This document shows positions 4,163 through 22,600 of a DNA stretch of 28,828 bases, piece after piece (position 1 is the first letter of the stretch; each line of letters starts with the position of its first letter). The notes under the pieces are model-generated. The model made no database searches. It was not told the DNA's origin and worked only from the letters and a program-made list of their open reading frames with translations. A program made the position numbers and the translations under genes. The DNA comes from a virus, in the IMG/VR virus record IMGVR_UViG_3300045918_000377, positions 1 through 28,828 of that record, one strand, 5' to 3'.

Positions 4163-4563
4163 TCGAGTTTTTGAACCCCGTTCACGTATAGTCCGTGGTT
4201 TCCGATGGTAATGACCCGATTGCTACTCATGTTTGCCATTGGTTTGATGGTGACGATGTTGTTCCCATTCGCCGCCGCCTCAAATAGTGTTATTGCCTGT
4301 TCGTCCAGTTGTTGCGGGACGGATATCGAGTTGGCAGAAATATTGTTGAATGCGGTGTTGCGACCTTTGACCGGCAGTTCCACTTTGCCGGTTGTGGTGC
4401 CGACAAACATCCGGTTTGTATCAGTGGTAAATAATGGCTCACCCATTGCAGCAGTAGCAGGGAGGGCAGATTCAAGACCCCGCTTAAATTGTATGGTAGT
4501 TGCCGCACACGTTATTGACACGCCGAACACTAATACCGGTATCAAATACAGATTTTTAAGCAT
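4156..4563 (-). CDS. Exported tail-like protein with Mtd-N-type RRG/GEP motif
   Basis: 135 residues. A signal peptide (MLKNLYLIPVLVFGVSITCA) is followed by TTIQFKRG...GEPLFTTDTNRMFVG. This matches the short motif (I-Q-x-x-R-G ... G-E-P-x-x-x-T-D-T-x-R-x-x-x-G) found at the N-terminus of many phage tail fibre and receptor-binding proteins, including the Bordetella phage Mtd N-terminal domain. The C-terminal half is beta-rich with no recognisable variable lectin domain. The start shares one base with the preceding stop (TGATG). A tail-fibre motif behind an export signal is unusual. It could be an exported decoy or adhesin, or the hydrophobic N-terminus may serve as a virion anchor. Confidence 0.65.
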   Translation of the reverse strand: MLKNLYLIPVLVFGVSITCAATTIQFKRGLESALPATAAMGEPLFTTDTNRMFVGTTTGKVELPVKGRNTAFNNISANSISVPQQLDEQAITLFEAAANGNNIVTIKPMANMSSNRVITIGNHGLYVNGVQKLEW

Positions 4564-4829
4564 CAGAATAACCCTCCATCAAATGTGCCCTGTGGTGTGT
4601 CGCCGAAACCACCGCCATCCAGGGTGTTAGGTGTCGTTGTCGTCGTTGGTGCAGCTGTCGTTGTCGTTGTCGCTATAGGTGCCATAGTTGTAGTGGTAGT
4701 TATATCGGCATACAGAATATCGGCAATTTCGATGATACCTATTGAAACTACAGATAGATACGACTTCGATATTGATACCGTAGTACTCAATTTCGGGGCT
4801 AACACCGTAGTTGTTGGGTTGACACTCAT
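4563..4829 (-). CDS. Small Thr-rich (mucin-like) protein
   Basis: 88 residues. Residues 1-42 are Ser/Val/Ile rich and probably beta-structured. They are followed by a Thr-rich tract (DITTTTTMAPIATTTTTAAP, then TTTTTP) and a Gly-rich tail (GGGFGDTPQGTFDGGLF). The start overlaps the upstream stop by four bases (ATGA). The TTTTTAAP pattern is the same composition as in the proteins at 7286-8611 and 9709-10536. That suggests a shared feature, either a flexible stalk or a target of the neighbouring glycosyltransferases. No homologue is recognised. Confidence 0.65.
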   Translation of the reverse strand: MSVNPTTTVLAPKLSTTVSISKSYLSVVSIGIIEIADILYADITTTTTMAPIATTTTTAAPTTTTTPNTLDGGGFGDTPQGTFDGGLF

Positions 4830-5299
4830 CGTGTCACTTCTGCCGATACCTTTGCTGCGCCTCGGTATAGTTTTTTCACTCTGTTCTCTGCCGTCACCAG
4901 TTCAATATCGTAAACGTGCCGCCGCACTCTCAGAGCTGCCGTTATTTCCGCCGATACCTCTACAGAAATCTTGCCCCTGTCTACAACTTGGTCTGGGTAT
5001 ACACTGCATGAGAATGACCATGCAGGCGTAACACTAGTGAATGCAATTCGGCCCATACCCCGCACTGTACAACCAGTGAGATCCATCGCTTCTCCGTTCG
5101 AGTCCTGTACTAATATTTCCCAATCGAAGGTATCCCCTTGAAGAATATCTATGTTAAGAGTCTCTGCCATTCCGTACCTCGCTGATGTTCGTAATGTAAT
5201 GAATCGTAGAGCTGCAATTACTACAGCCATGATATCTAACCATAACGGATAGCTGCTGCCGTCCATATCCAGCATGGTTTGCTCTATCCAGTTCGCCAT
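4826..5299 (-). CDS. Phage tail/baseplate-associated protein, BppU N-domain-like
   Basis: 157 residues from 5299. The part from residue 44 (MAETLNIDILQGDTFDWEIL) has the layout of small phage proteins related to the baseplate-upper-protein N-terminal fold: I-x-x-G-D-T-F-x-W near the start, DLTGCTVRG in the middle, YDIEL and a closing VSAEVTR. An internal ATG at 5170 with GAGG upstream would start exactly at this domain and may be the main start. The longer form adds 43 residues with an apolar stretch (WLDIMAVVIAALRF) and begins only 5 bases after the preceding stop, so both starts are plausible. It likely connects a fibre or decoration protein to the virion; this is inferred from family resemblance. 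Confidence 0.65.
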   Translation of the reverse strand: MANWIEQTMLDMDGSSYPLWLDIMAVVIAALRFITLRTSARYGMAETLNIDILQGDTFDWEILVQDSNGEAMDLTGCTVRGMGRIAFTSVTPAWSFSCSVYPDQVVDRGKISVEVSAEITAALRVRRHVYDIELVTAENRVKKLYRGAAKVSAEVTR

Positions 5300-5304
5300 T
5301 TGTG

Positions 5305-5982
5305 CTATTCCCTGATCTGGATTGGCTGTAAATTAAAGACTCCGCCCACCATGCATCGCAAAGCATACTCGTCATATACCTGCTGTGTCCTATCTCCGAA
5401 AGCCGATAGATGCAATTCTGATACTCCCCATCGGTAGAGATAAAAGCACTCTGCCTCTGTTAATGCTCCGTCGATAGTTTTACATTGTGCGCGGAGCAAG
5501 CCGTCCATTGCAGCGTCCTGTGGCCCTGACAGCAAAGGATAACCGCCAACTTTCAGCCATGCAGTCTTGCGGAACATGGAACAGTTGTGAGCATACCCAC
5601 CTCTGTCAAATGTGGTTGCTCCGCCACTCCGGCAAAAATAGGCATGAGGGTTAAAATAGTCGGCATCACCAATACGTTCTACGGATAATGATATGCGGTG
5701 CGGAAGAGAAAGGTCATCATCTTCCCACGAACAGATCAACTCCCCGGTGCATTGTTCGATAGCGTAATTGTATTTCTCTCCCAGGGTGGCAAAACGTTTC
5801 GGATGGTTGATAACCACAACGTCAGGATGGTCGAAATGTATCTGCTGCCCTGAATGATCGTTGATGATTATCAGTTCCTTGTCCACATAATCCTGTTGCA
5901 GAAAGCATTGCAACGCCTCTTCCAGTAATGTCTTGTTGCTGACTACTCGGTTATATGTCGGGCAGATACAGGAAACTCTCAC
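5305..5982 (-). CDS. GT-A fold glycosyltransferase, family 2-like
   Basis: 225 residues, starting at a GTG that overlaps the upstream glycosyltransferase stop by four bases (GTGA). The N-terminus RVSCICPTYNRV and the segment DKELIIINDHSG are the first two nucleotide-binding strands of GT2 enzymes. SWEDDDLSLPHR (residues 85-96) holds the acidic DDD metal-binding motif. LSGPQDAAMDGLLRA fits the region of the catalytic base. No membrane segment is present, so it should be a soluble cytoplasmic enzyme transferring sugar from a nucleotide donor. Translational coupling to the GT-methyltransferase gene suggests both act on one substrate, perhaps extending a glycan on a Thr-rich virion protein. Donor and acceptor cannot be read from sequence. 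Confidence 0.85.
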   Translation of the reverse strand: MRVSCICPTYNRVVSNKTLLEEALQCFLQQDYVDKELIIINDHSGQQIHFDHPDVVVINHPKRFATLGEKYNYAIEQCTGELICSWEDDDLSLPHRISLSVERIGDADYFNPHAYFCRSGGATTFDRGGYAHNCSMFRKTAWLKVGGYPLLSGPQDAAMDGLLRAQCKTIDGALTEAECFYLYRWGVSELHLSAFGDRTQQVYDEYALRCMVGGVFNLQPIQIRE

Positions 5983-7289
5983 GCTGTCCTCCGCAGTACC
6001 GTCAGTCCGTTGTTGTTACGGTAGACAGTTTCGATATACCAATCAGGATTGTCGGCAAGGAACAGATAGATTGCGCGATTTAAGCCACCAGTCCCATCTT
6101 CTCCTGTACGCCCAAAAGTGACGGTATCATGCATCACTATGCATTCCCTGACTGCCGGAGCGTGACGGGCAAGCTCTGCGCTTAATTGCGCTTCGGTGTG
6201 AAGAGTATCAATAAACAGTACGTCTGTTTCTTCAATGACTACATCAAGGCTGTTGCCGACCTGGAAGTTAAACGGGATTGCCATCACCCCTGCCATTTCA
6301 TTCAATTCGTCAATACGACCACACGGGTTAATGTCATAGCTGGTCAACGCGGTGGGCCTGCCATAGAGCAGTCCGGTGGTTGATTCGCCGGTTCTCACGC
6401 CAAACTCTACGACACGTTTACCGGATGACAGTCGTGCCAGAGTCGGGATGTGTTCGCCTATATCAACAGCGTTGCAAGCGGTGGCGTAGACCTGTTCAGG
6501 GTTTAATTCAGAGATGTACTTCATAACCTCTGCTTCTCCGAAATGTTCATATAATGGGAACATATCAAGGCCCAATTCTTGGAAACCTATCGCATAGTTG
6601 CGGATCTTGTCGCTATGTAGGGCTACATAGTCGGTCGGCTTGTTGCCTGGACGGAAGTGATGCACCCATTGCAACCACGGCAAACAGATCGTCTTGTGAC
6701 CAGCCTTGCGATACTTCTCGTGGATGTATCCCTCTTCACCGCCAAAACCTTTGAAGCGGGGATTGAACCCTAGCCAAGCGTCACGTTTGCAACCAAACAG
6801 TCCCATCCCCATTGCAGGGATTTCGTATGGTTCAAGTGTTCTGTCAGTATTGATGTTGTGCCACTGACCCCACATACCATCAGACCATATCGTCGTGAAT
6901 GAGTCTGCCCCGCTTATGAGGTTGTCGTAGAGAAGTGGACCTTGCAGTAAATCCATGCAATCGGGGTTGTCGCTGATGTATTGCTTTAGTTTTGTTACAG
7001 CACCCTCGACAAGTAGCACATGGGAATCCATGCAAAAGACCCACTCCCCTTGTGCATGTTCAAATACTTTATTCTTCGCCGGTGCGGTACCTTGATTGCT
7101 GGTATCACGTACATAGCGCACGTTTGAACTGGCCCACCCTGCAATGAAGTTTTTGATATTGTCACAGCCGAAATTATCAACAATCAAAATCTCGCAATCA
7201 GTCAGATCGTGGTGCATTCGGAGTGCCTGAACTGTGAACCATGTCTCCGCGTAGTTGTTATATGAGGCCATACCGATCGTAAGTCTCAT
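5979..7289 (-). CDS. Glycosyltransferase (GalNAc-T-like motifs) fused to a SAM methyltransferase
   Basis: 436 residues. Residues 1-230 form a GT-A domain: LTIGMASYNN and CEILIVDNFG at the start, then FCMDSHVLL with a DSH triad at 88-90. A GFGGEEGYIHEKYRKAGHK segment follows at 181-199 and WVHHFR near 208-213. The D-x-H motif, GGE segment and H-x-F-R are arranged as in polypeptide GalNAc-transferases (GT27), which start mucin-type O-glycans, although plain GT2 membership is also possible. Residues about 270-436 form a Rossmann methyltransferase: VVEFGVRTGES (SAM loop), SYDI, LFIDTLHT and CIVMHDT. The fusion suggests a methylated sugar product. The start overlaps the propeller gene stop by four bases (ATGA). 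Confidence 0.85.
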   Translation of the reverse strand: MRLTIGMASYNNYAETWFTVQALRMHHDLTDCEILIVDNFGCDNIKNFIAGWASSNVRYVRDTSNQGTAPAKNKVFEHAQGEWVFCMDSHVLLVEGAVTKLKQYISDNPDCMDLLQGPLLYDNLISGADSFTTIWSDGMWGQWHNINTDRTLEPYEIPAMGMGLFGCKRDAWLGFNPRFKGFGGEEGYIHEKYRKAGHKTICLPWLQWVHHFRPGNKPTDYVALHSDKIRNYAIGFQELGLDMFPLYEHFGEAEVMKYISELNPEQVYATACNAVDIGEHIPTLARLSSGKRVVEFGVRTGESTTGLLYGRPTALTSYDINPCGRIDELNEMAGVMAIPFNFQVGNSLDVVIEETDVLFIDTLHTEAQLSAELARHAPAVRECIVMHDTVTFGRTGEDGTGGLNRAIYLFLADNPDWYIETVYRNNNGLTVLRRTA

Positions 7290-8611
7290 TTAATAACCTT
7301 TACCCCTTGTGAGGTCATAACACGAACTGAGCCATTATTACCCGTTCGGTCAATTTCAAAATTGACAGTTTTTCTGCCAACCCGGTATCGAATCTCGCCC
7401 CATGCTACGGCAGTCAGTCTTCTATTGGCAGAAACATCGGGTGTTGGTGTAGTCCCACTTGGGGCATTGGTAGTCGTAGTTGAAGTAGTCCCACTTGGGG
7501 CATTGGTAGTCGTAGTTGAAGTAGTCCCACTTGGGGCATTGGTAGTCGTAGTTGAAGTAGTTCCACTTGGGGCATTGGTAGTCGTAGTTGAAGTAGTTCC
7601 AATTATTGTGGTCGTAGTTGAAGTAGACGTATCTGCTGGATCAAAAATCTGGGCCAAAGTTGCATTTTGGTAGCCATAGGCAAAAAACATCGTAGTGGTT
7701 ATGCCTGATTGATCCGACTGTTCAGTCCACCAGAGATGGGTTTTACCTTTCGCCTCCAATATACAAAAATCAGCGGCTTGCGCTGGTGATCCGGGCGCAT
7801 TAGAAAAATTCACCAGTTGTAGCAGAACTCCTTTGCTAACCCACCCAGATGGCCCAAGGATGTCATCATTTGTATAATAATAACCCTGTGAAGGAGTGTT
7901 GTAACCACCCGGCACCGTTTCATGGGTAACCATTACCCATTTATTACCAGCCCTCACAATACTTGGATCGCTTAGCCCTCGACCATTATTTAGTATTGGA
8001 TTCCCTGAGTATAAAGCTATATGCTCTAAATCAGAACCAGACGCATACCCGACATTCCAAGTCCCCCCAGAATATTGTTCAAAGAAAATCTTTACAATTC
8101 CAGCGTCCCATATAATATCGCCAGCATTGCCAAAAGTGGCACCAGACATGGCCGCATTTTTTATAAGAGTCCATGTGCCTAGTGCGCCAGTAGGCGAAGC
8201 ATAATAGTCAAATTGAGTTACCAACCCTGTTGCCGGTGAATACCCGAACGGGCCTACCAGCATGTGATAAGTGCCATCTGGCCCAACTTTTACTAATGAC
8301 CTGCCATAGTTTGTATCAGTAGCGATATTTGAACCATCATACGTACTCGGTAGAGCATCACCTAAAAAAGTGAAATTGATACCATCAGCAGATTCGGCGT
8401 AACCAATACGGACACCTGTAATTACTGAGGAATAGCCCGGATACAGTGGGGGTTTACCTGTCTCATTATAATAGACTCGGCTCCCCCACATTTGGTACAC
8501 ATCTCTTGATTCATTATAAATAACAGATATTTCTCCAAGCCTATGACCTGATGAAAAATCTTCTACCAGCCCAGTTCCATTGTATCTGATCCAATCAGTA
8601 GGACCACTCAT
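7286..8611 (-). CDS. Beta-propeller (GH43/GH32-like) protein with Thr-rich repeats
   Basis: 441 residues from the ATG at 8611, which has GGAG 6 bases upstream. Residues 1-320 repeat blade-like units (YQMWGSR, YHMLVGP, IWDAGIVKIFFEQ, SDPSIVRAGNKWVMVTHE) typical of five-bladed GH43/GH32-type propellers that bind or cleave polysaccharides. Residues about 328-395 are a Thr/Ser/Pro tract with four 12-residue repeats (NAPSGTTSTTTT), followed by a small beta-rich C-terminal domain. A lipoprotein signal peptide is encoded upstream in the same frame but is cut off from any start codon by a T10 tract, so the real gene may be longer. Catalytic residues cannot be assigned confidently. Likely roles are host-surface glycan binding or depolymerisation. 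Confidence 0.75.
   Translation of the reverse strand: MSGPTDWIRYNGTGLVEDFSSGHRLGEISVIYNESRDVYQMWGSRVYYNETGKPPLYPGYSSVITGVRIGYAESADGINFTFLGDALPSTYDGSNIATDTNYGRSLVKVGPDGTYHMLVGPFGYSPATGLVTQFDYYASPTGALGTWTLIKNAAMSGATFGNAGDIIWDAGIVKIFFEQYSGGTWNVGYASGSDLEHIALYSGNPILNNGRGLSDPSIVRAGNKWVMVTHETVPGGYNTPSQGYYYTNDDILGPSGWVSKGVLLQLVNFSNAPGSPAQAADFCILEAKGKTHLWWTEQSDQSGITTTMFFAYGYQNATLAQIFDPADTSTSTTTTIIGTTSTTTTNAPSGTTSTTTTNAPSGTTSTTTTNAPSGTTSTTTTNAPSGTTPTPDVSANRRLTAVAWGEIRYRVGRKTVNFEIDRTGNNGSVRVMTSQGVKVIK
7449..7592. repeat. Minisatellite: four 36-bp tandem repeats encoding NAPSGTTSTTTT
   Basis: The 36-base unit (beginning gtagtcccacttggggcatt on the plus strand) occurs four times in tandem at 7449, 7485, 7521 and 7557, with only a C/T change in the last unit. 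A degenerate fifth copy starts at 7593. The unit is a multiple of three, so gain or loss of copies changes the length of the Thr-rich stalk without shifting the frame. Confidence 0.92.
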
Positions 8612-9708: not shown

Positions 9709-10536
9709 TTACGTCGCGAAATTGCTGAACGTGATGGTTGATGTTGGTGCTGGGTTAGCTGTAGTCGTAGTCGTCGTAGGTGCCACAGTTGTGGTGGTTG
9801 TAGTCGGTGCTGCCGTTGTCGTAGTGGTTGTAGGTGCGGCTGTAGTGGTGGTGGTTGTAGTAGTTGGGGCCGCTGTCGTTGTTGTAGTTGTTGTTGGTGC
9901 AACAGTCGTTGTGGTCGTAGTCGTTGTTGTGGTAGTAGGTGCGGCTGTAGTGGTAGTGGCATTAGCTATAAAATTAGAGAAAACGATTGTTGCAGTTGGT
10001 GCAGGATTCGACGTTGTGGTCGTAAGCGCTGGCATTGTTGTGCTGGTAGTCGTTGTTGGTGCCACTGTTGTGGTGCTTGTGCTTGTCATAGTCGTGCTGG
10101 TAGTTGTAGGGGCTACAGTAGTTGTAGTAGTCGGAGCAACGGTTGTTGTACTTGTGGTCGTGGTGGTAGGTGCTGCGGTTGCAGTTGTCGTCGTAGGTGC
10201 AACCGTGGTGGTTGCAGTTGTCGTAGGTGCACTTGTCGTAGTAGTGGTGGTCGTTGGAGCAACAGTTGTGCTGGTACTGGTCGTTGTTGGTGCAACAGTC
10301 GTTGTGGTCGTAGTCGGAGCAGGTGTTGTTGAATATCCCAACAAATCCATACGCACAACAAACGTACTGCCAGCAGCAAAAGCGGCATCTTCGTCTATTT
10401 GACTGTATACTTCTGTCACAGTTGGAACAGTCAGCAACAAAGCACGTAAAGCCGTCCAGTCAGAGGGCTGGAGCTTGGCAGCATTGATTCCGTCAGCAAA
10501 TTGTGACAGGTCTTTTATTGTTGAAATGTTTGCCAT
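9709..10536 (-). CDS. Mucin-like Thr/Pro-rich phage protein
   Basis: 275 residues. Residues 1-70 form an ordinary N-terminal domain (MANISTIKDLSQFADGINAA, ending VVRMDLLGYS), which probably attaches to the virion or oligomerises. Residues about 71-262 are almost entirely Thr, Pro, Ala and Val in units such as APTTTTTTV, like eukaryotic mucin stalks. Two copies of a short motif interrupt and end the tract: NPAPTATIVFSNF and NPAPTSTITFSNF. Start 10536 has GGAG 6 bases upstream. It is the first gene after the giant protein and follows a 47-bp repeated element. The tract should be an extended rod and a good O-glycosylation target; the two glycosyltransferases downstream are candidate modifiers. 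Confidence 0.75.
   Translation of the reverse strand: MANISTIKDLSQFADGINAAKLQPSDWTALRALLLTVPTVTEVYSQIDEDAAFAAGSTFVVRMDLLGYSTTPAPTTTTTTVAPTTTSTSTTVAPTTTTTTTSAPTTTATTTVAPTTTTATAAPTTTTTSTTTVAPTTTTTVAPTTTSTTMTSTSTTTVAPTTTTSTTMPALTTTTSNPAPTATIVFSNFIANATTTTAAPTTTTTTTTTTTVAPTTTTTTTAAPTTTTTTTTAAPTTTTTTAAPTTTTTTVAPTTTTTTANPAPTSTITFSNFAT
9757..10331. repeat. Low-complexity ACN/GTN-codon repeat DNA encoding the Thr-rich tract
   Basis: The plus strand is a run of gtNgtNgt triplets with recurring ggtgc or ggtgca blocks (codons for Ala-Pro between Thr runs). It is interrupted only around 9960-10040. Such DNA is prone to recombination and slippage in multiples of three, so tract length is likely to vary between relatives. 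The long plus-strand poly-Val frame it creates is not a gene. Confidence 0.85.
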
Positions 10537-10619: not shown

Positions 10620-13600
10620 CTATTCAGCACCATGCGCACGTTCCCAACTGTTTTTCTTCTGGTTGGTTTTGCCCCAGACGTTTGCCAGCGATTCAGATGA
10701 TATTAACGGTACCAAGCCTTTCGCCTGGCTGTTCTTTAAGGCAATATTGAATTCCTGAATAAACTTCAACTTACGGCTCATGCGATAATTATCCAGAGCA
10801 TCCTTACGCCGGTCATTCCATTCGGCCTGCGTGTTCTTCTCAAAGCCGCGCGTCTCCGAAATGTCAGCTGTCCGAACCGGTTGCATGCCAAAGGCCCGGA
10901 TAACCGCCTCGTGCGGCTCCATCTTCAACTGCTTGCCCTTGTACTCAACCCGCTTGCCGGATGCCGTTTTAACGCCATCGGTCGCCTGCCTGATCGCGCT
11001 TAATGGATTCGCTACCGCCGTCGGCAGCATATATTCAACAGAGCGACCCCAATCGCCCCTCAGCGCCGCCTGAATTGACATCTTCCCTTTTTGCGCCAAA
11101 CCCCACACCGGACCGCCGAGCGACTTGGCCATATCATCCCCGGCAATGACGTTGGAGATAATCGGCATGCGCAACTGCGTGGCGCCGGTCAGCGACACAC
11201 CAACCCCGAACGGCTTAAACGCCCCAGGGACACCGTGCCAGACAAACCCCTCCAGCATTTCACCAACAGTGTCATAATCCTTGGCCATCTTGCGGGACCA
11301 CCCTTTCAAGGCCAACTTCGGAGAATAGCCGAACATCTTCTGAATCAGCTTATCCAGCTCATCAGATCCCGGCGCACCGGCAGGCAGACCACCGATCAGG
11401 AACATGGCAAACAGCAGGCGCAATATCGCTTTCTGGTCGGCTCGGTTGCCGCTGCTGCTGCGGTTCCAGAGATAATTGAGCATGTGCTGGATGTATGACT
11501 GCAGCGCATAGAACATGCGGCCTATCGGTCCACGCGCCCATCCCGGCAGATTATAGCGTCCCATGTCGATATTGACGGCGCTGTTGACGTCCAGCGACTT
11601 TTTAAGCGCCGCATCATGGCTCATCCCCTGGCCGCTGAATACCCGGTACCCGGCAATGATCATGGTATGACGGTTCAGTACTTCAACCTTTTGCCCGATC
11701 GCCATGGCAACCTGCGTGACATTATGCAGCGTCTGTGACGCCTTGCCGGTGACACCTTCTAAAGATCCGGTCATTTCCGCCATCACCGAATCATGATCCT
11801 GACTCCGTACCTGGATATCTTCAAGCAGTGCCTTTTCGACAGCAGACAGTTTACCGGTCAGAACATCCTTCTCCGCACGGGCAATCTTGCCGAGCGCCCC
11901 GCTGGTATAGCGTGACAACTCAGCCTGTCCCAGCACATACGGTTGCGTCGAGTTAACCAGCATCCACGAGGTATTGAAACCGAGATACCAGAGCGATACG
12001 ATAGCCCGCATGTTTCCGGACCACTTATCCATTGTCCCCATATTGCGGAGCGAATCCCCGACATACTTAGTTGCCCAGGCCCGAGTAGCCGCCGGCACAC
12101 TCTTCATATTATGAAACTGCCGCAAGGCATAACGCGCCTTAGAGAACAGACCGGCGGTGCCGTTAACATAATCCTCATACTTCTTGACGGCGTTGTCGGT
12201 ATCGTACCCCTCAATCAGATATTGCGCCCGCCTGATCTGGTACAACCCGGCGCCGCGCCCCAGGAGAATTTCCGCCGTACTCCGGACGAGCTCATCCTTG
12301 ATCGCCGTTGCATCCTCCGAGCTCACCTCATCCTTGGCTTTGGCCTTGTCAATGGCATTACGCAGGATCAGTTCCAGCTTCATATCACTGGTTTTCAATA
12401 CCTGATAATCCTCTTCCTGCACCTTGTCAGAGCGGTTCCACGATGTTTCATAGATATACCCGGCACGATGATTACGCGGCATGGCAGCGGCATAATCCGC
12501 TTTTACCGCAGCCGCAAGCTTCTTCGCTTTAGCGGACGAAGCCACAAAGCGGTTATACGTCAGCACCTTGTATTTATAATCGCCGTTCTTGTCAGTCAGC
12601 GGGATACCATCAATTGCGTCCAGCGTCTGAACGCCAGCCCCTTCCGGCATCAGGATCACAATAGCGCCATTGCGCAGCTGCTTGAAACTCCCCCCCTTTA
12701 TTTCAACAAGTTTTTCAATCTTTTTCGACAACTCCGCGCCAGGGAAGGTACCAAGCCGCAACCGATCCGCAGCTTTTCCCTGGTGCTGAACAACATCGCT
12801 ATCGAAATCAAGCCGGTCAACCGTCTGATATACCCGTACCTGATAATCACCTTCACCATGATCCCGATGTACCCACCCCTTGATACTGGCATACTTGGAG
12901 CGGAATTCAGCAATATGCCCTTCGATATCCTCCGGGCTTATGCCAGCCTCGGCCATATTCTCCGCCGCAATAGCAATCTTTACCTCAAAAGCCTTGTTCT
13001 CTTCAGCAAGAGCCGCTTGATAGAATTTGAACGTCGCTTCATCCAGCCCGGATTGCTTAATCCGCCGGTTACGCAGCGCATCGCCCAACTGTGCATAGAT
13101 CTTATTATAGGCGTCCCCTTCAAAGCGGATCACGTCATACGCCGCCTTTTGCTGCTTGGTCAATGCATCATACTGCTCCTGCCGGATCTTGCCCCAGGCG
13201 GTCGTTTTGTCGGTCCAGTCAAACAGCCCTTTGACCTTATCCCAGCCAACCCGTTTCCCCTCTTTATCCACCAGCCCACCAAACATCCGGATGTTATTAT
13301 CCATGCGCGTAACTTCCCGGTCCTTGGCCTCTTCATAAAACGGCACCGCCGCAGGGTTATTTTCTTTCTTCCAGAAGGGGTTACCAAGGTTATCCGCCAG
13401 CCAGTCGGTTGCCACCGGCGGCAAATGGTCAATAGCCGTGTCACGGAAGCGGGAATAGTCGAGGGGATTAATGATGTTTTTCAGGTTATCCAGCAGGGAT
13501 TTACCCGAGACGTTTTCGAAGTTGCGTTTGATGGAATATTTATTGGTGATCGAGACGTCAGCATCGTTGAAGATTACGTAGTTGTAATTCTGCTTCGCAA

Positions 13601-16600
13601 CTACCGGGCCAAACATGGTAGATCGCCCCGGCATGGCAATAACGTTACCGGCCCGGCTTGTTCCATCCAGATATTTGATGCCCCGGATACCGAGAGAGTG
13701 GAGATATTCGGAAGCATCGCGTTTCAGATCACCGGAAGTGTCTTCTTGTCCCGGCAAAGGCGACTCACTGGCATACTTTACAATTGACCGATACAACTCT
13801 TGCCCGGTTATATCTTCAAAATCAGTGTTTAAATGATCTTCGATTTCTTCAACGAAACTGGTACCAAGAGCTTCTTTTATCGCAGGGATTGCGTTTAGAA
13901 GAGCGCCCTCAGCATGAGAAATAGGATCATCCCATAATAGATATTCATTTTCTTTCGGAGCAAGTTCGACCTGGTAGAGACGACCAGCGCCAGGCATAGA
14001 CTTAATTGCATCGGATACCGATTTCCAATCTTCACCAAGTGCGCTATGGGTGCCAGCGGAATTGATATTCTGAATCAAATACCCGATTGCGGTGTCTCCG
14101 GTACCATAAAATTCATTGGTGCGAGTGGCCTTATCCAATTTGCTCCACGCATCAGGAGAATATTCTTTGATGATTCGGCCCAACTCTGACGCACTTTCCT
14201 TCCTGATATTATCCCGATAATACTCCGCCACATCTTTGTTCCCAGCGAAATATAGCCCATACCCGTAAGCCTGTGCTCCTTCACCAGTGCCAATATGTGC
14301 AGTGCTAAACCCATCATGATCATGCGGCGAACCATGCCAGGCGGCAGCCAGCTTATTCTCCCCAACCCCCAACGCCGCCCGCAGCCTATCCTCCGTCATC
14401 CCGACCGAACGAAGGTGCTCCAGAATACTCTGCCCCGCCAGGCGGCTGTTTAGATATTCCAGATCCTGCTGCTCGGCAAACTTGCCGTACAGCTCCTTGT
14501 TCACATTCTCGCCATACTGCAGCAGCGTCTTGGCAATGATTGCGCGGGACTGTTCCAGATCAGAAACATACGTCCGTACGTCATAGCCAACAATCCGCCG
14601 CAGCGCCTTATTGATCAACTGGATAGCCCGCCGCGCAATCCGGGTGAACAGCCCGGCGTTCTCCTTCGCCATATCCTTCCAGAACAGATCGTTAAGGAAA
14701 TGATTACCCATGACGTCGGAAAACAGCTCCTGAAGCTTATCATCGTCAGAGAGCTTGTCATATTGGCCCGGCAGTGACTCCTTAAAATCACTCCAGCGCC
14801 GTACCAGCGGCTGCAACTCTTTTGCCATCTGAGCCCACAACGCCGAATCTTGCATTTTGATAGCGTGGCTCAATTCATGCCCGGCGATATAGAGAAGGTG
14901 ACTGGACGAATCGACATTCAGGAAGATAACATTCGGCTGAGCCGGATTTACAAACCCAGAGATTTCACCTTTTCCCGATAGCGCCGCGCTTTCTCCAGAT
15001 CGTCCGGCGCCAGGCTCGCTGCCAGTTCCTCCATCGTGTATGCGTACTGCCCCGTTTTCAGATCCATCAGTTGCCACACCAGCGTCACGCACCCTGAAGA
15101 ATACAATGGTTTTTCCGAATCCCCTGGCAACGTGTTTAAGTGCATCAACATTCCCCCCCTTGACTAACACCTGTTCAGCATGTTCTTTTTCCAGTGAACG
15201 CTTGATGAATGGCAGAGACTTTGCGGGAGTGACCGTGACATCACCCAGGCCGGAATCGCCTTGCATGGTGGTGCGGGGGATACTGAAGCTGGAAGATTTG
15301 TCCCAGGCATCAACGGCCGCGTCTACTTCATCGCCAAACTCTGGCTTTTCCTGTGCCGGCACTGGCAGAGAGTCTATTCCCGCCTCTTTTGCCAGTCGCT
15401 GTGCCTTTGTATCAAGATCAAATTCAATTACCGGATCAACCACGTAAATTATGCCATCGGCATCAACGCGGGAATTATCGCCATGCACGTCCCGAACAAC
15501 AAGACCGGTCTCGGGGATTCGGTAACTGGTGGGGGCCGGGCCCGTACCGACCGGCTCATATCCGGACCTGATCATATTACCATGTGACTCTTCAAGGGTT
15601 GCCTTGCGGCCACGTACCCATGGCTGAGACGTAACTGGCATTAACACCCCGTCCGATTCGACAAACCCCTCAAGAGTGTACGGGGCGTTAGCAAACTCCA
15701 CATTGTGAACAGCCAGGCGTTGAAAGTAATCGAGGTAGGTTTCGTGGAAGGCGAGATTCAGCTTGTTGCGCTTGAATACCCGTTTGCCGTCTGATGAGAG
15801 ATATACTTGATGTTCGGCACCGCCTTTCTTGCCGTCCCTTTGCCATTGGCGGTCAAACTCAGCGGTGTCGATAATAAGGTTATTCGTTTCGGCCCACTGT
15901 TTCAGTGCGGCGGTTTCCTGCGGTCTTATGCTGCTTTCGGCAAGCTCTCTGTAGCGCTGGTGTTTTTCCCAGGCAGAATCGCCGGAGATTTCCCCTCGTC
16001 GCACTGCCTCATGAATTCTTCTCGCGTAGCTGGAGGCTGCACCAAGAGTGCCTTCCTGCCCCGTTCGTTCATATCTTTCCGGTAATCGTTCATGGACATA
16101 GTACCCCGCTTTTATGTTATCGATTCTCTGCGTTGCTGACTCAATTTTACTCTCTTCAGCGTTTATGTCAACACCAACCATGCGGCGCTCATCAGCAACA
16201 ATCTTCTTTGCCTGGTGATACACCTTCAGCATCACACCCTTGAATGCATCCCACTTCTCCCCCAGATATTGCTTCATGCCGGCCAAAAACTGCTGATACT
16301 TTCCGACACCCTCGCGAAGCACCACTTGCCCCAGCTTTACCAGCTTCGGAATGTCCTCTTTCAAATTCTTGGCGAGTCCGGAGAGGGAGGTGACAATTGC
16401 TTTTGGGTTAAGCATAGGGTTCTGGTAAAACACATCGCCGCCTTGCGGCATTACTCCCGTCTCCACCATGCTCACGCCATCCATCGCCGCCGCATCGAGC
16501 ACTCTGGCGCCTAAAACGTTACCAAAAGAAATTACATTCTCTACCGCGCGCCGGTCGAGGTAGGTGTCGTTAATGGAAAGCATCAAATGCGTAGCGCCGG

Positions 16601-19600
16601 TTTCATGCATCCGGTGCATAATTCGCCCCGCGCCGCTCTCTTTTGTCCCGGTAGACAACTGCAACATTTCTGCGGGGGTCATCGGTATAAAACCGACAGG
16701 CCGGTTCTTGCCGTCAATTAACAACACGCCGGTTTTTCCGGGGAAATATTGGTTACGAACATCCATGAATTGTGCCGGGGCCGTTATCCGTGGAGTATCC
16801 GCTATCGCCTCAATATTTCGGTCATAAACAGATAATTTGTTTTTCCGCGCTTCCGTAGTGTCGTTCGTTCCCCACTCCTGGTTATATTTGTCCAGCGGCG
16901 GAAACGCCTGATACTCCCCGGTAAAACCAATCTGGATTGACGCCTTGACCTCAATACCCGCCGCCTGTAAAACACGGGCAACACGGGCGGTCACCTCATG
17001 ATCTTCAGGGGAGGGGGTCGGGTCTCCGGTGGGGTGGTTGTGCGCCAGGTAAACAGCATTGGCTCCCGGAAAATCGAGAATAACTCCGGAGAGGTCACGC
17101 GGATGGACAATGCTTTGGTTTGCAGATCCGGTCGAGTGTTGGACAACGCCCAAAATCTTCCCGGACTTGTCAACCACAATTGCTATCAGGCCCTCTTGCG
17201 CTCGGTTGGCGATAGGCTGTGCCACACGCGCCGCATCTTTGATGGTTTTTATTTTGGTAAGGGGAGAATAGAGAACACCGGAGATAGCCCGAACGACTTT
17301 ACCGTGGAATTGTGGGTCTGGAGGCTTGGTTATTTCCGAGAAAGAGGCGGCAAAATTGAAGTCTGTGGCGAGTGGTTTGGTTGCTGCAGAGGCGGGCAAG
17401 AACAGCCCGAGTTGTTCCCGTATGGTTCCGGAGGCGTCCACGTTCCGCTCCACCCCGGCGGGGCGGTCACTGTTGGTGTTGGTATAATCAGATCCTGCGG
17501 CTGGTCCGTCGTTGTGTATAGCGGTGATTTCATAAGACACCTCATTAGGATCAAGCGTACCATAAATCTCACCTTTAGCCATATTCTTTTCTGTGACCGG
17601 GATGCCATATAGCACCCCTGGCTCAAAAATCGCCACACCCTTATCAGTTTCCTCCGTTTTCAGTTTTCCAAATAACGCATCGAACGCAGTATTGATCGCC
17701 TTACGCTCCTCGCCTTGTGGCGCCACCGCCTCCAATCCGGACAGATAGGTGTTCTTCTGGTTCAGAGCAGCAATCTTGTCAGTGATATAGGCATCAACCG
17801 CACGGGCAAACATCTCCCACGGCGTTGACCAATAGAGAGAGTTGGCTGTTTTACCGTTGTCCGCCGCCTGCGACGCTTTGGCATAATCAGTATTCACACT
17901 CAATGGCGCATGTTCCTGCTCTTGAACTTCAGCCGATCTTTTGACGCCATACGCCGCTTGATGCAGCCAGCCGAATTCATCAATGTTTATTTTTCCGCCA
18001 TGCTTTTGAGTAACCTTGTGCTTTTTAGCCAACTGATACAGGTCGGCAACAGCGGGGAAAACAACCTTGGCACTACTGATTGCAACATAAGCATCACCGA
18101 ATTCATGGGCCCGCAGCCGCTCAAACAGCCGGGCTGCTTCCGCTTTACCCTCCTCCGGAATGCTCTCAAAATATGCTTCAAAGCGGGAAACATACTTTTC
18201 AAAAGACTTTTCACTTGCTTCAGCACTGCGCTTGATCCGGTCAGCCGCCTCCTGCTTTGTCTCCCGCCGCCGGGACATTGTTTCCATAATGGTCCGGAAC
18301 GCTTTCACCACTTCAGGGCGAACGGTACCCTCCTTGGCGTTATCACGATGCTTCGACAAATACGGCTTCTTGTCGGTAGACCAACCAGCCATCTCCCCAA
18401 AATAATTATCAAGGCCATGGCCGAGCAGTTCATGGATAAAGGCACCAGCGCCGGTCGTGCGGGTAATATTAACTTCCTTATACGCCGGGACATAATGAGC
18501 AGACGCCTTCCCGCCGCCCTGCGCACCAACCGCAATGCCAATGGTGCCGTTGAAAGAGATTGCCGGTAGCGGTACATCAAGAAGTTCTGCCAGATCGTAT
18601 GACGAATCATAGATAAAATTCAGATGCATCTGTGCTTCATCAGCAGGCACCCAATTACCGATATTGATCCCGCGATAACCAAAGGCGTCAATAATCTGCT
18701 GCGCAGAAACGTTTTCCCCTTCCAGCCGCCGCGCCGGACCAATCCGCTCCGCAGCCGCCACGTTCACGCCCCGCTCATCAGGCCCTTTCTTCTGCTCTTT
18801 GGTAACAAGCTTTTTAGCAGCCGCTGCCGCTTCCTCATCGGTGGCAAACGAATCAATGATGCTGTAATTCTTCCGGACCAGCAAAACAGGGTTGAGACTA
18901 TCAACATACGCTTGCGCTTCTGCATTGGTGTCAAAACTCTGTACAGGACGGTCTTTAAGCCGGATCGTGAAGCGTTCCGAACGGTTCGGCTGGCTCACCG
19001 GTTTGATTGTAACGTCATCTTTAGAACCAAGCGAATAGCCCTGTTTCTGCCACGATGTTGTTTTACCCGGCCAGCCTTTACTAAGATCCTTGCTTGCCCG
19101 GACAACTTCATTATACCCCGGCTGCAGGCGTGACATAATCTTGTTTCCGCCAAGAATATAAACCTCGTCCTTGAAATTGCGCCAGCCGCCCGGATAGGCA
19201 ATGTCATACGGCTGCACAACCTTCGCCATCATATCCGAAATACTGGTAACGGTACCAAGTCCGGCGCCTGCAGTTTTGGCATTCTTTGCCGCCCAGGCCC
19301 CGATAGCAGCATTGTCCTGGCTCCAGGACATAACTGCATCCATAACTCGGTTGACCGCCGTTATATACGTCTGAAAATCAGCATCAGTCGGAGTGGTACG
19401 GGTCACCGGAGCATTTGGCAGTGCATCGTACACCTGCTTTACTATATGCGCGACAATTCCCGGCATACCGTCTTCAACCAGCGCCGCGTAATCAGGTTTG
19501 GCATACACATTACTCTTCTGGACACTCTCCGCCTTCAGTGCCCCGGTAGCATCCTTGATATCATCCCACTTGATACCTTTCAGGCGATTGCGCTTGTTGT

Positions 19601-22600
19601 AGATCAGTTCTTCACCAGCGTCGGCAACCGGTTTTGTTTTGGTTTTGGCGGTTGATTGCAGATCCGGCTGGACGCTTTCCGTGCTGGTGAAGTTATCCAG
19701 CAAGCCTGACGTAGAAACGTCACTGTTTGTGGTTTTGGGTTGTGGCTTATGGCCGAAGGTGGGAGGTGTAGCGAAAAGCTTATCTTGAGATTCTACTGTG
19801 CTTGCGGCGCCTGCTCTTTTTCCTGTTTCAGGTGTTTCAGCTGTACTATCTCTTTCGACGACAGCAAGGCCACTGCTTTCAGGCACTGCAGCCGCTTCTC
19901 TTTCGGAAATTTGTTTATCTTGTCGAACATCTGTTGTGCTCTCGGAGTCAGCATTTTCAATCTCCTTTATTAATTCGACTGCCTTACGGTTAATTGCCTC
20001 ACGATGAGCAATAATCGCATTGTAATCCTCTTCAGATAATTCTTCAAACAAATCTGCATATTCATCAGCAATAAATTCAACAACGGAACTATCCAGGCTC
20101 AACTCTTCCAGATCCTCATCAGAGAATTCCGGCAGTTCCAGTTTCACCTCTTGGTGGTTCTGATCACTCACCACCGTTTTACCGGCGATGGCATTTGCTA
20201 ATTTATCCTCAAACTCCACCAGATCATGCTTGCCGTTTTCATCCCGGCGCAGATAACCGTTCTCGGCCAACAATTCGGCCATACGATCAACAGTCAAGCC
20301 CCCTGTTTTCCGGAAGAGAGGTCGGCCAAAGAGTTTATGATTAATCTTCTTATCGGCAGCAGCGTCACCGGCCAGGTTACCCCACAGAGACACGGCATTG
20401 CCCAGATCAAACCCACCCAACTTGGCGATTGCAGTAAGCAGGTGGTCCCGTTGCGGGTTCAGCCCGGCAACCGGCTTGGCTGCGCGGACAGTCTTGATTT
20501 TTGTTGGCGGGGAACTTACTTCTGTTTCGGCGGCAGTTTTACTTCTGTTATTTTCGATCCCGGCGGGAGGTTCTGCAGAAACTCCAGCAGGTTTTTCGCC
20601 TCGTGCGGCTCTTTCACCGACTGCTTCACGTTCTGACTTTCGCTGTGCAAGGGCTGTGTCTGCTTCTGCGAGTGTTGTTCCTGTGCCATACGTGGCCTCC
20701 AATCCCTTCCATCGGTAAATCGTACCATCCGGAGCGGTACCGGTTATCTCCGCATTCTTCAGCCGGGCATTAACGCGAGACATGGTCTCATGCACATGCG
20801 CCTGGTCTCGGCCTTCAACGATAAACTCATCACCACTGATATGATACCCTCTATCAGTCTCTTCCGCAATAGCCTGGGCGATACCTTTAAGCAAGGCATT
20901 ACCAGACTCATGCCCCATATTATCATTCACCCACTTCAACGAATCAGCATCAATCGCCGCATGGTGCCCGAGACGTTCCGCCTCTTCATACGCCCGCTTG
21001 TTCGGAATGCCGGTCAAGTGATTCGTCAGCAGCGCCGCGTTCTTTTCCGCATCCGTCATCTCCGCAACTTTTTTCCGGGTCTCCTGGTCACTGCGACGAT
21101 CAACCGGAACGACAGCAGTACTGTCTCCCCCCTGTGCCATTGTCGCTTTATGCGCATCAAGCGCCGCCTTGGCCTTCTTCCGTTCAGCCGGTGTTTTCGC
21201 ATTGTTCAACTTCTTTTGTAGAGCGGTCAACCGGGTCTGCGCGAACTTGGCGGCGTTGTCAGCTTTTTTCGCAGTGGCCGCACTATCAGCAGTCGCAGGA
21301 CCTCCCTCCGGCACCACCGAATATTGCACAATAGGAGCAGAAAGATTTCCCTGGCTCCGCAGCCACAATGAATATTCCCCTTTGTGCCAATCCTTGCCCC
21401 GCTTCTCCCATCCCGCCGTCTGTAACGCCGCCTCATAATTGGCAATTGACGCAACGGAATCAACCCCGGCATCATTGTTGACAGCAGGAATTAACGTTGC
21501 ATTACCGTGCCCCTCTGCCAATGATTTCTCAATATCGGAAACATGTTCAGCCGTATGAGCAGCAACATCAAGCGGCTTTGCATCTTCGTTCCGCACTGGT
21601 GACACTTCTTGCGCTTTGCCTGTTTCTTGCCGCAGTTGGGACACGTCATCGGTCAATCCTCCGGGTTGAGATAAATTACTTCCTGATCCGTCATCTGTTT
21701 TTTGCACTTCGGGCACAGATACGCCCACCCCGTCCACGTTGGCCGGGCCTTGCAATAAAGACACTGAATCTGTAGCGCCATTTGTTATCCCCTTCGACAA
21801 TTCATTATCATATTGAACAGCAGGCGCAGCCGAATCACGCGCGACCGTCGGCGCAATCACCTTCCGATATTCAGACAGCAACCGCCAGGCGCGATCACGC
21901 TCTGTTTCCCCTGCTACTTCCGAAATAGCCGCTTTACCCTGCTTCTCCATATTAAGCGCCCACTTCACCGCGTTCTCAAAATCAACCTGATCCGCTTCCG
22001 TGACTTCCCGGACCGGCTCAACAACAACCGGAGCAGTCTGAGACGAGGGAGCCATGCCGCTTTGTGACGGCACGGGCTCTGGATTGACAGGAGTAGGGGA
22101 GGGGGTAAATGCGGGTATATGATCAGCGGTATCCGCTGTTGTTGTCGGCACAACGCTTTCGGCAGCCGTCTGCAGCGGGCCCTTCGGCGCCGGCATATCT
22201 TCGGTATCGTCGTAGGATTCGTTTTGGAAGGAGGTAGGCGCGGTTTCCTGTACTGGTGTCTGCATTCCCTGTTTCGGTGATGAAGCACGCAATGCCGCCG
22301 CTTGTGCTGATTCTGGTGTAAAATTACGGCCACCGGTTATCGCGTCAGCAGGGTTACGTTGCAGATCATTGAACGCTTCCAGCCATGCCGGAGCGGCAGG
22401 GACTTGAACCGGCGCAGCGGTGCCCGCCGCAATCTGAGGCGCATAGAGACGCTGGTACTCTTTGGCATCAGCAACCTTGCCGCTGTACTCCTCATACTCT
22501 TTTTCCTGCTCCGGCGTCATTTTCAACAGCGGATCTTTGCTTATTTTGTTCTGGACCGCATGCGCCGCCTTACCCATAGCACTCATGGCGCCGGTCTGCA

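Follow-up and report, generated by a model that had tools for sequence, protein, structure and literature searches.

The viral DNA considered here (record IMGVR_UViG_3300045918_000377, positions 1 to 28,828, the whole of this stretch being called the window below) raises a specific question: does a phage encode an enzyme that attaches sugar directly to Thr and Ser residues of proteins, the first step of mucin-type O-glycosylation? A sequence-only reading had proposed this for one gene, P0001, based on its resemblance to the polypeptide GalNAc-transferases of family GT27. It had taken such an enzyme to be very rarely described in phages and had named the Thr-rich proteins encoded next door as the obvious acceptors.

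The gene, its family and its operon

P0001 is read from the minus strand and encodes 436 amino acids, while the plus-strand frame is full of stops (Table 1). A locus search in viral contigs with the single protein P0001 found no relatives. With tblastn, 50,697 phage records yielded no credible relative and one weak, generic match at most; over the phage and plasmid searches as a whole, all that came up were weak GT2 matches of a generic kind, or nothing. At least 119 viral stretches were retrieved when the GGEE segment was written as a degenerate DNA pattern, and a profile-guided scan of bacterial genome contigs gave 94 confirmed relatives, 80 of which were kept. Relatives of P0001 (n = 191) are found in viral contigs and in about ten bacterial phyla. 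The fusion partners among bacterial members are HPr-kinase-like, GT25, sulfotransferase, LicD or FkbM-methyltransferase-like domains; a number of these matches score below the cut-off. P0001 belongs to a large, separate family of prokaryotes and phages, and with these numbers the supposed rarity of such an enzyme in phages did not hold.

Table 1. P0001, its domains and motifs, and neighbouring genes of the window
Feature	Position	Strand	Basis or remark
P0001, GT-A glycosyltransferase (residues 1-250) and methyltransferase-like domain (251-436)	5979..7289	-	
GT-A domain, nearest solved folds GT27	6540..7289	-	AF2, Foldseek, Pfam Glycos_transf_2
D88-S89-H90, DxH metal motif (predicted)	7020..7028	-	hhalign: on GALNT2 D224-S-H226
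G181-FGGEEGYIHEK-192	6714..6749	-	aligned to GALNT2 WGGEN; second Glu against Asn of GT27
W208-V-H210-H-F212	6654..6668	-	H210 on GALNT2 H359, F212 on GALNT2 F361
SAM O-methyltransferase-like domain (predicted)	5982..6539	-	Pfam, AF2, Foldseek
Probable acceptor, 441 aa, Thr-rich tract TTSTTTTNAPSG (about 4 repeats) and C-terminal module	7286..8611	-	
Second Thr-rich protein, 45% Thr, APTTTTTT repeats, probable further acceptor	9709..10536	-	
Second glycosyltransferase (GT2), possible glycan-extending enzyme	5305..5982	-	Glycos_transf_2 E 2.3e-13
Tail-associated protein	4826..5299	-	phrog_1084 E 4e-20; tail-fibre assembly PHROG E 1.3e-5
Small protein, Thr-rich C-terminal part, possible further acceptor	4563..4829	-	

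The start of P0001 overlaps the stop of the gene for the probable acceptor (ATGA), and its own stop overlaps the start of the GT2 gene (GTGA). The probable acceptor has weak PHROG tail and Pfam mucin matches, and its C-terminal module resembles those of the acceptors of relatives. Its TTSTTTTNAPSG repeat is encoded by a 36-bp tandem repeat (7449-7601, 4.2 copies, 99% identity); judged by its sequence, this array is recently expanded. In the second Thr-rich protein all four Thr codons are used (41 ACA, 31 ACT, 27 ACG and 26 ACC), which points to selection on the protein, as the operon overlaps also argue. On this codon usage we rejected mere DNA slippage as the origin of the Thr tracts, although the 36-bp array does record recent expansion. 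According to phrog_1084 and the tail PHROGs on the neighbours, the P0001 cassette sits in a tail module.

Other parts of the window are described here for orientation. An FSNF motif stands beside the Thr tracts both in the second Thr-rich protein and in another viral locus (L050, 7548-11477). The left end (48-1081) is host DNA with the 3' part of rpsA, an HU/IHF gene and a tRNA-Leu(UAA) (about 1043-1081) that is severed at the anticodon; the rpsA protein is 91% identical to its counterpart in a genome of the Desulfocapsa phylum. These host genes and the severed tRNA-Leu suggest a prophage inserted in tRNA-Leu, of which the window would be one end. A single protein of 4335 residues (10620-23627) includes a DNA-repair-like stretch and matches several PHROGs of unknown function; it looks like a giant polyvalent phage protein.

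Signature motifs, predicted folds and known enzymes

The DSH, GGEE and WVHHF motifs pointed out in the sequence-only reading are all present, and they are not chance features of one protein, as five of their residues are conserved across 191 aligned GT domains of the family. Specifically, D88, H90 and W208 are each found in 191 of the 191 domains, and H210 and F212 in 190. It is important to note that these five residues lie outside the pattern by which the relatives were selected; the GFGGEEGY(IH) columns were themselves what the search selected for, and finding them invariant adds no independent evidence. The second Glu of GGEE is nevertheless a genuine hallmark, since a scan with GFGGE[N/D]GYIH found no viral contig, as compared to at least 119 for GGEE. 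In the W-G-G-E-N segment of GT27, cited in the sequence-only reading, this position is Asn. The D-x-D metal motif of typical inverting GT2 enzymes is not found; the P0001 family always has D-x-H. For the later His ligand, either H210 or H211 had been suggested. From the alignment, the candidate for the third metal ligand is H210, which pairs with a known ligand of GALNT2 (see below). H211 is ruled out, as this position is Arg in 181 of 191 relatives and His only in P0001.

The AlphaFold2 model of the GT-A domain, made with 29 relatives in the input, has a mean pLDDT of 92.8 and a pTM of 0.91. In a Foldseek search of the PDB the best 50 matches of this model are all GT27 polypeptide GalNAc-transferases, in a ranking where GT27 has many redundant PDB chains and which was made without a folded control glycosyltransferase. 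The best match is GALNT2 (4d0t, E 6.9e-13, TM-score 0.78 over the query). Alignment by hhalign of the family profile with GALNT2 (PDB chain 2ffu) and fragments of four other GT27 enzymes extends over 184 columns and places DSH on D224-S-H226, GGEE on GGEN and W-V-H-H-F-R on V-G-H-V-F-R. In this profile alignment D88, H90, H210 and F212 are paired with GALNT2 D224, H226, H359 and F361. In GALNT2 structures D224, H226 and H359 are the Mn ligands, and F361 is a residue of the peptide groove whose replacement (F361A) nearly abolishes activity (PMC4432651).

Sequence profiles give a different picture. Pfam Glycos_transf_2 (PF00535) matches the N-terminal half of the P0001 GT domain (E 2.6e-16, score 60.4 vs cut-off 23.3) and does so in 29 of 29 family members, in the N-terminal half only. 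Through this generic nucleotide-binding half the full-family profile matches TarP (E 3e-10), TarS (E 2.7e-5) and chondroitin synthase; it gave no GT27 match at E ≤ 1, and a profile of the C-terminal half gave no PDB match at E ≤ 10. A single-sequence search matched residues 124-245 of P0001 to GALNT7 (E 0.0012). In sequence the N-terminal half is nearer to TarP, TarS and chondroitin synthase; the predicted fold of the whole domain is nearest to GT27.

GT27 enzymes (GALNT2 and GALNT7; animals and Toxoplasma) share with P0001 the GT-A fold, DxH, GGE, the later His and H-x-F in register. Unlike GT27, the P0001 family has GGEE in place of GGEN or GGEQ, lacks the C-terminal ricin-type lectin domain, is fused to methyltransferase or kinase-like domains and is prokaryotic. 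Since the sequence profiles fall short of GT27, partly in that the C-terminal half found no PDB match, and since Glu follows GGE, we do not claim membership of GT27. The likeness lies in the fold and the metal motif, and to this extent the proposal of a GT27-like enzyme stands. E. coli K4 chondroitin synthase (GT2) and the GT7 galactosyltransferases also have an acidic residue after GGE, and in the former, whose N-terminal half is similar, a His follows the GGE glutamate at a distance of 25 residues, just as H210 follows E185 in P0001. As the spacing from GGE to His is 25 residues in both GT27 and chondroitin synthase, it does not discriminate between them. Chondroitin synthase and GT7 differ from P0001 in having DxD, no H-x-F, Asp as the acidic residue and sugar acceptors. 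The Glu of P0001, at a position occupied by Asn or Gln in GT27 and by Asp in the inverting GT7 enzymes and chondroitin synthases, would leave open an inverting mechanism. TarP and TarS, wall teichoic acid GlcNAc-transferases of GT2, share the N-terminal nucleotide-binding half with P0001 but have a DSD motif and a polymer acceptor, with no match over the C-terminal half.

Residues 251-436 match Methyltransf_24 below the Pfam cut-off (E 0.0012). Their AF2 model has a pLDDT of 87, and the best Foldseek match is 6g80 (E 7.2e-9, 20% identity), MeT1 of Mycobacterium hassiacum, a sugar O-methyltransferase. The likeness is one of predicted fold; in P0001 the domain is fused to a glycosyltransferase. 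The predicted class I SAM methyltransferase fold goes together with a SAM-binding motif in the stretch EFGVRTGEST. Eight viral relatives of this domain (35-43% identity) are stand-alone where read. At locus L084 (1860-4160) a downstream protein has GT2, GT32-like and Methyltransf_24 matches and so echoes the pairing in P0001.

Glycosylation of virion proteins, both capsid and tail, by mycobacteriophage-encoded enzymes is known, e.g. Che8 gp108-gp110 (PMC12363180). Che8 gp108 is, by eye, an apparent fusion of glycosyltransferase and methyltransferase like P0001. Unlike P0001, gp110 has no DxH/GGEE signature and looks GT25-like in sequence; P0001 as an enzyme of the gp110 type is thereby ruled out. 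The tblastn search of phage records gave no Che8 match to the P0001 family.

Thr-rich neighbours in phages and bacteria

The suggested link between the enzyme and Thr-rich neighbours was borne out beyond the window. In 41 of 106 viral loci the ORF that ends directly upstream on the same strand has a Thr/Ser-rich tract, as compared to none of the 72 scorable loci (87 fetched) of a control glycosyltransferase motif, GWGGED (Fisher p 1.2e-11). After de-replication at 85% identity the upstream gene is Thr-rich in 26 of 69 loci and the downstream gene in 2 of 68; the control was reduced to 39 loci, about 32 of them scorable by proportion, and p is 1.2e-5. In a family tree built with FastTree only, the pairing turns up on scattered branches, phage as well as bacterial, and all eight members of the clade to which the window belongs are Thr-linked. 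It is not universal: an aquatic-phage clade of 25 members is without a Thr-rich neighbour wherever this can be judged. In many of its members a PD-(D/E)XK nuclease gene precedes the glycosyltransferase, and in this clade the enzyme may have been reassigned. The nuclease arrangement was seen at L002, L007, L012, L052 and about 20 related viral loci.

The C-terminal ends of the Thr-rich proteins have features of their own. In aquatic phages a C-terminal Cys tag, C-x(2-9)-C-x(1-3)-[LM]-x-[FYW], is carried by 17 of the 73 ORFs whose end coincides with the start of the GT. Among the remaining ORFs on the same strand, 1164 in number, it occurs once, in a further Thr-rich protein of the same locus. 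The tagged Thr-rich proteins are those of L006, L008, L010, L011, L018, L020, L045, L046, L064, L079, L084, L091, L094, L106, L109, L110 and L117. Compared by eye, the upstream proteins of the window's clade have in common a different C-terminal module after the Thr tract, while their heads vary; GDSL lipase heads were read from the sequence in L065 and L050, and two members match that Pfam family. This arrangement of differing heads and a constant tail would fit a signal on which the enzyme docks, and the Cys tag is possibly a docking or sorting signal. A PHROG scan of the upstream Thr-rich proteins gave no match.

The pairing extends to bacteria. Of 56 de-replicated members that could be decided, 37 have a Thr-rich tract no more than 3 kb away, and a protein with a Tat-like leader is encoded near the GT in 28 of 80 bacterial loci, many of these proteins having Thr-rich tails. 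Typically they are small, with a twin-arginine leader, RRxxLK...W[TSM]KPVVxSVxxPAHA, ahead of a Thr-rich tail (L126, L128, L131, L136, L140, L142, L157, L166, L167, L177 and others); at some loci there are tandem arrays of at least two. Some bacterial members have no above-threshold tract; L133, L140, L177, L196 and L198 have the leader with a shorter tail. The Tat-leader proteins are often found near kinase-like/GT fusion proteins and near NTP_transf_5 and PqqD genes. Among bacterial neighbour proteins NTP_transf_5 nucleotidyltransferases were counted in 9 of 78 and PqqD-like proteins in 5 of 78. Runs of seven consecutive Thr codons were also located in eight genomes (3.7-10.8 Mb). Among the matches listed there are 16 clusters, four of which lie 98-408 bp from a GT gene, with 0.009 expected, and one genome of 3.7 Mb has a single run, located next to the GT. 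Where genomes are rich in Thr tracts, as in some actinobacteria, proximity to the GT means less.

Proposed function, alternative readings and meaning

Taking these results together, we consider P0001 a likely protein O-glycosyltransferase with Thr-rich tail proteins as its acceptors. The sequence, its conservation, the predicted folds, the operon structure and the statistical Thr link are shown, while how the metal is held, which protein accepts the sugar, which sugar it is, in what order the pathway runs and what purpose it serves are inferred. P0001 would be a cytoplasmic, metal-dependent enzyme of a distinct prokaryotic and phage family, with a catalytic domain built like that of GT27. The nucleotide sugar would be bound via a metal that is most likely held by D88, H90 and H210. 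The first sugar would be placed on Thr (and Ser) of the mucin-like tracts in the neighbouring tail proteins, mainly in the product of the adjacent upstream gene, which overlaps that of P0001 in one operon. Extension of the glycan is probably carried out by the downstream GT2 enzyme, and the fused methyltransferase probably O-methylates the glycan as a cap. The tail protein that results would have a stiff stalk coated with glycan.

We also weighed an ordinary GT2-type enzyme that acts on a polysaccharide or lipid-linked sugar, for example at the host surface in lysogeny, like GtrB or TarP, its position among tail genes being coincidental. The PF00535 match, the match of the N-terminal profile half to TarP and a weak PHROG match to GtrB-like O-antigen conversion agree with this, but the profile matches span the generic nucleotide-binding half only, and the whole-domain fold is nearest to GT27. 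Moreover, the DxH found in all 191 relatives is DxD in TarP and chondroitin synthase, and the control glycosyltransferases show no Thr-rich link; we regard an ordinary GT2 role as unlikely. The Thr tracts could instead be flexible linkers of tail proteins, with the GT travelling along in hypervariable tail cassettes and its true acceptor elsewhere. Tail cassettes are hot spots for gene gain, and one large viral clade is without the Thr link. The same pairing beside Tat-leader proteins in bacteria of several phyla, however, goes beyond any explanation by phage tails, and the strong bias to the gene directly upstream also speaks against linkers, which makes this account rather improbable.

Modification of phage DNA bases or other nucleic acid is a further alternative. 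Virus-encoded DNA glycosyltransferases are known (cited in PMC12619734), and many GT genes of the Thr-less clade follow the nuclease gene. P0001, however, overlaps a Thr-rich gene and sits in a tail module, not among replication genes, and we consider a nucleic-acid acceptor very improbable. Our preferred reading remains protein O-glycosylation, and it is directly testable because the genes for the enzyme and the proposed acceptor are adjacent.

No description of the P0001 family or of its pairing with Thr-rich proteins was found in the literature, which is weak evidence of novelty as most subscription journals lay outside the search. Animals are regarded as the chief home of mucin-type O-glycosylation. 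The P0001 family, likened here to GT27, has Thr-rich, mucin-like neighbours in phages and bacteria alike, and it could be a prokaryotic sister of the animal GT27 enzymes. A broader proposition, for which in our judgement the chances are evenly balanced, is that bacteria and phages have a widespread mucin-type O-glycosylation of their own. In such a system a family of GT27-fold, DxH glycosyltransferases would act on dedicated Thr-rich acceptors (tail proteins in phages and Tat-exported proteins in bacteria), while further glycosyltransferases would lengthen the glycans, and methyl-, sulfo- or kinase-like domains would decorate them. If this is true, prokaryotes glycosylate Thr tracts by a dedicated enzyme, which bears on the origin of GT27, and the side-by-side pairs of enzyme and acceptor would be available for O-glycoprotein production in bacteria. 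For the phages it would mean glycan-coated tail proteins, with a possible effect on adsorption and recognition.
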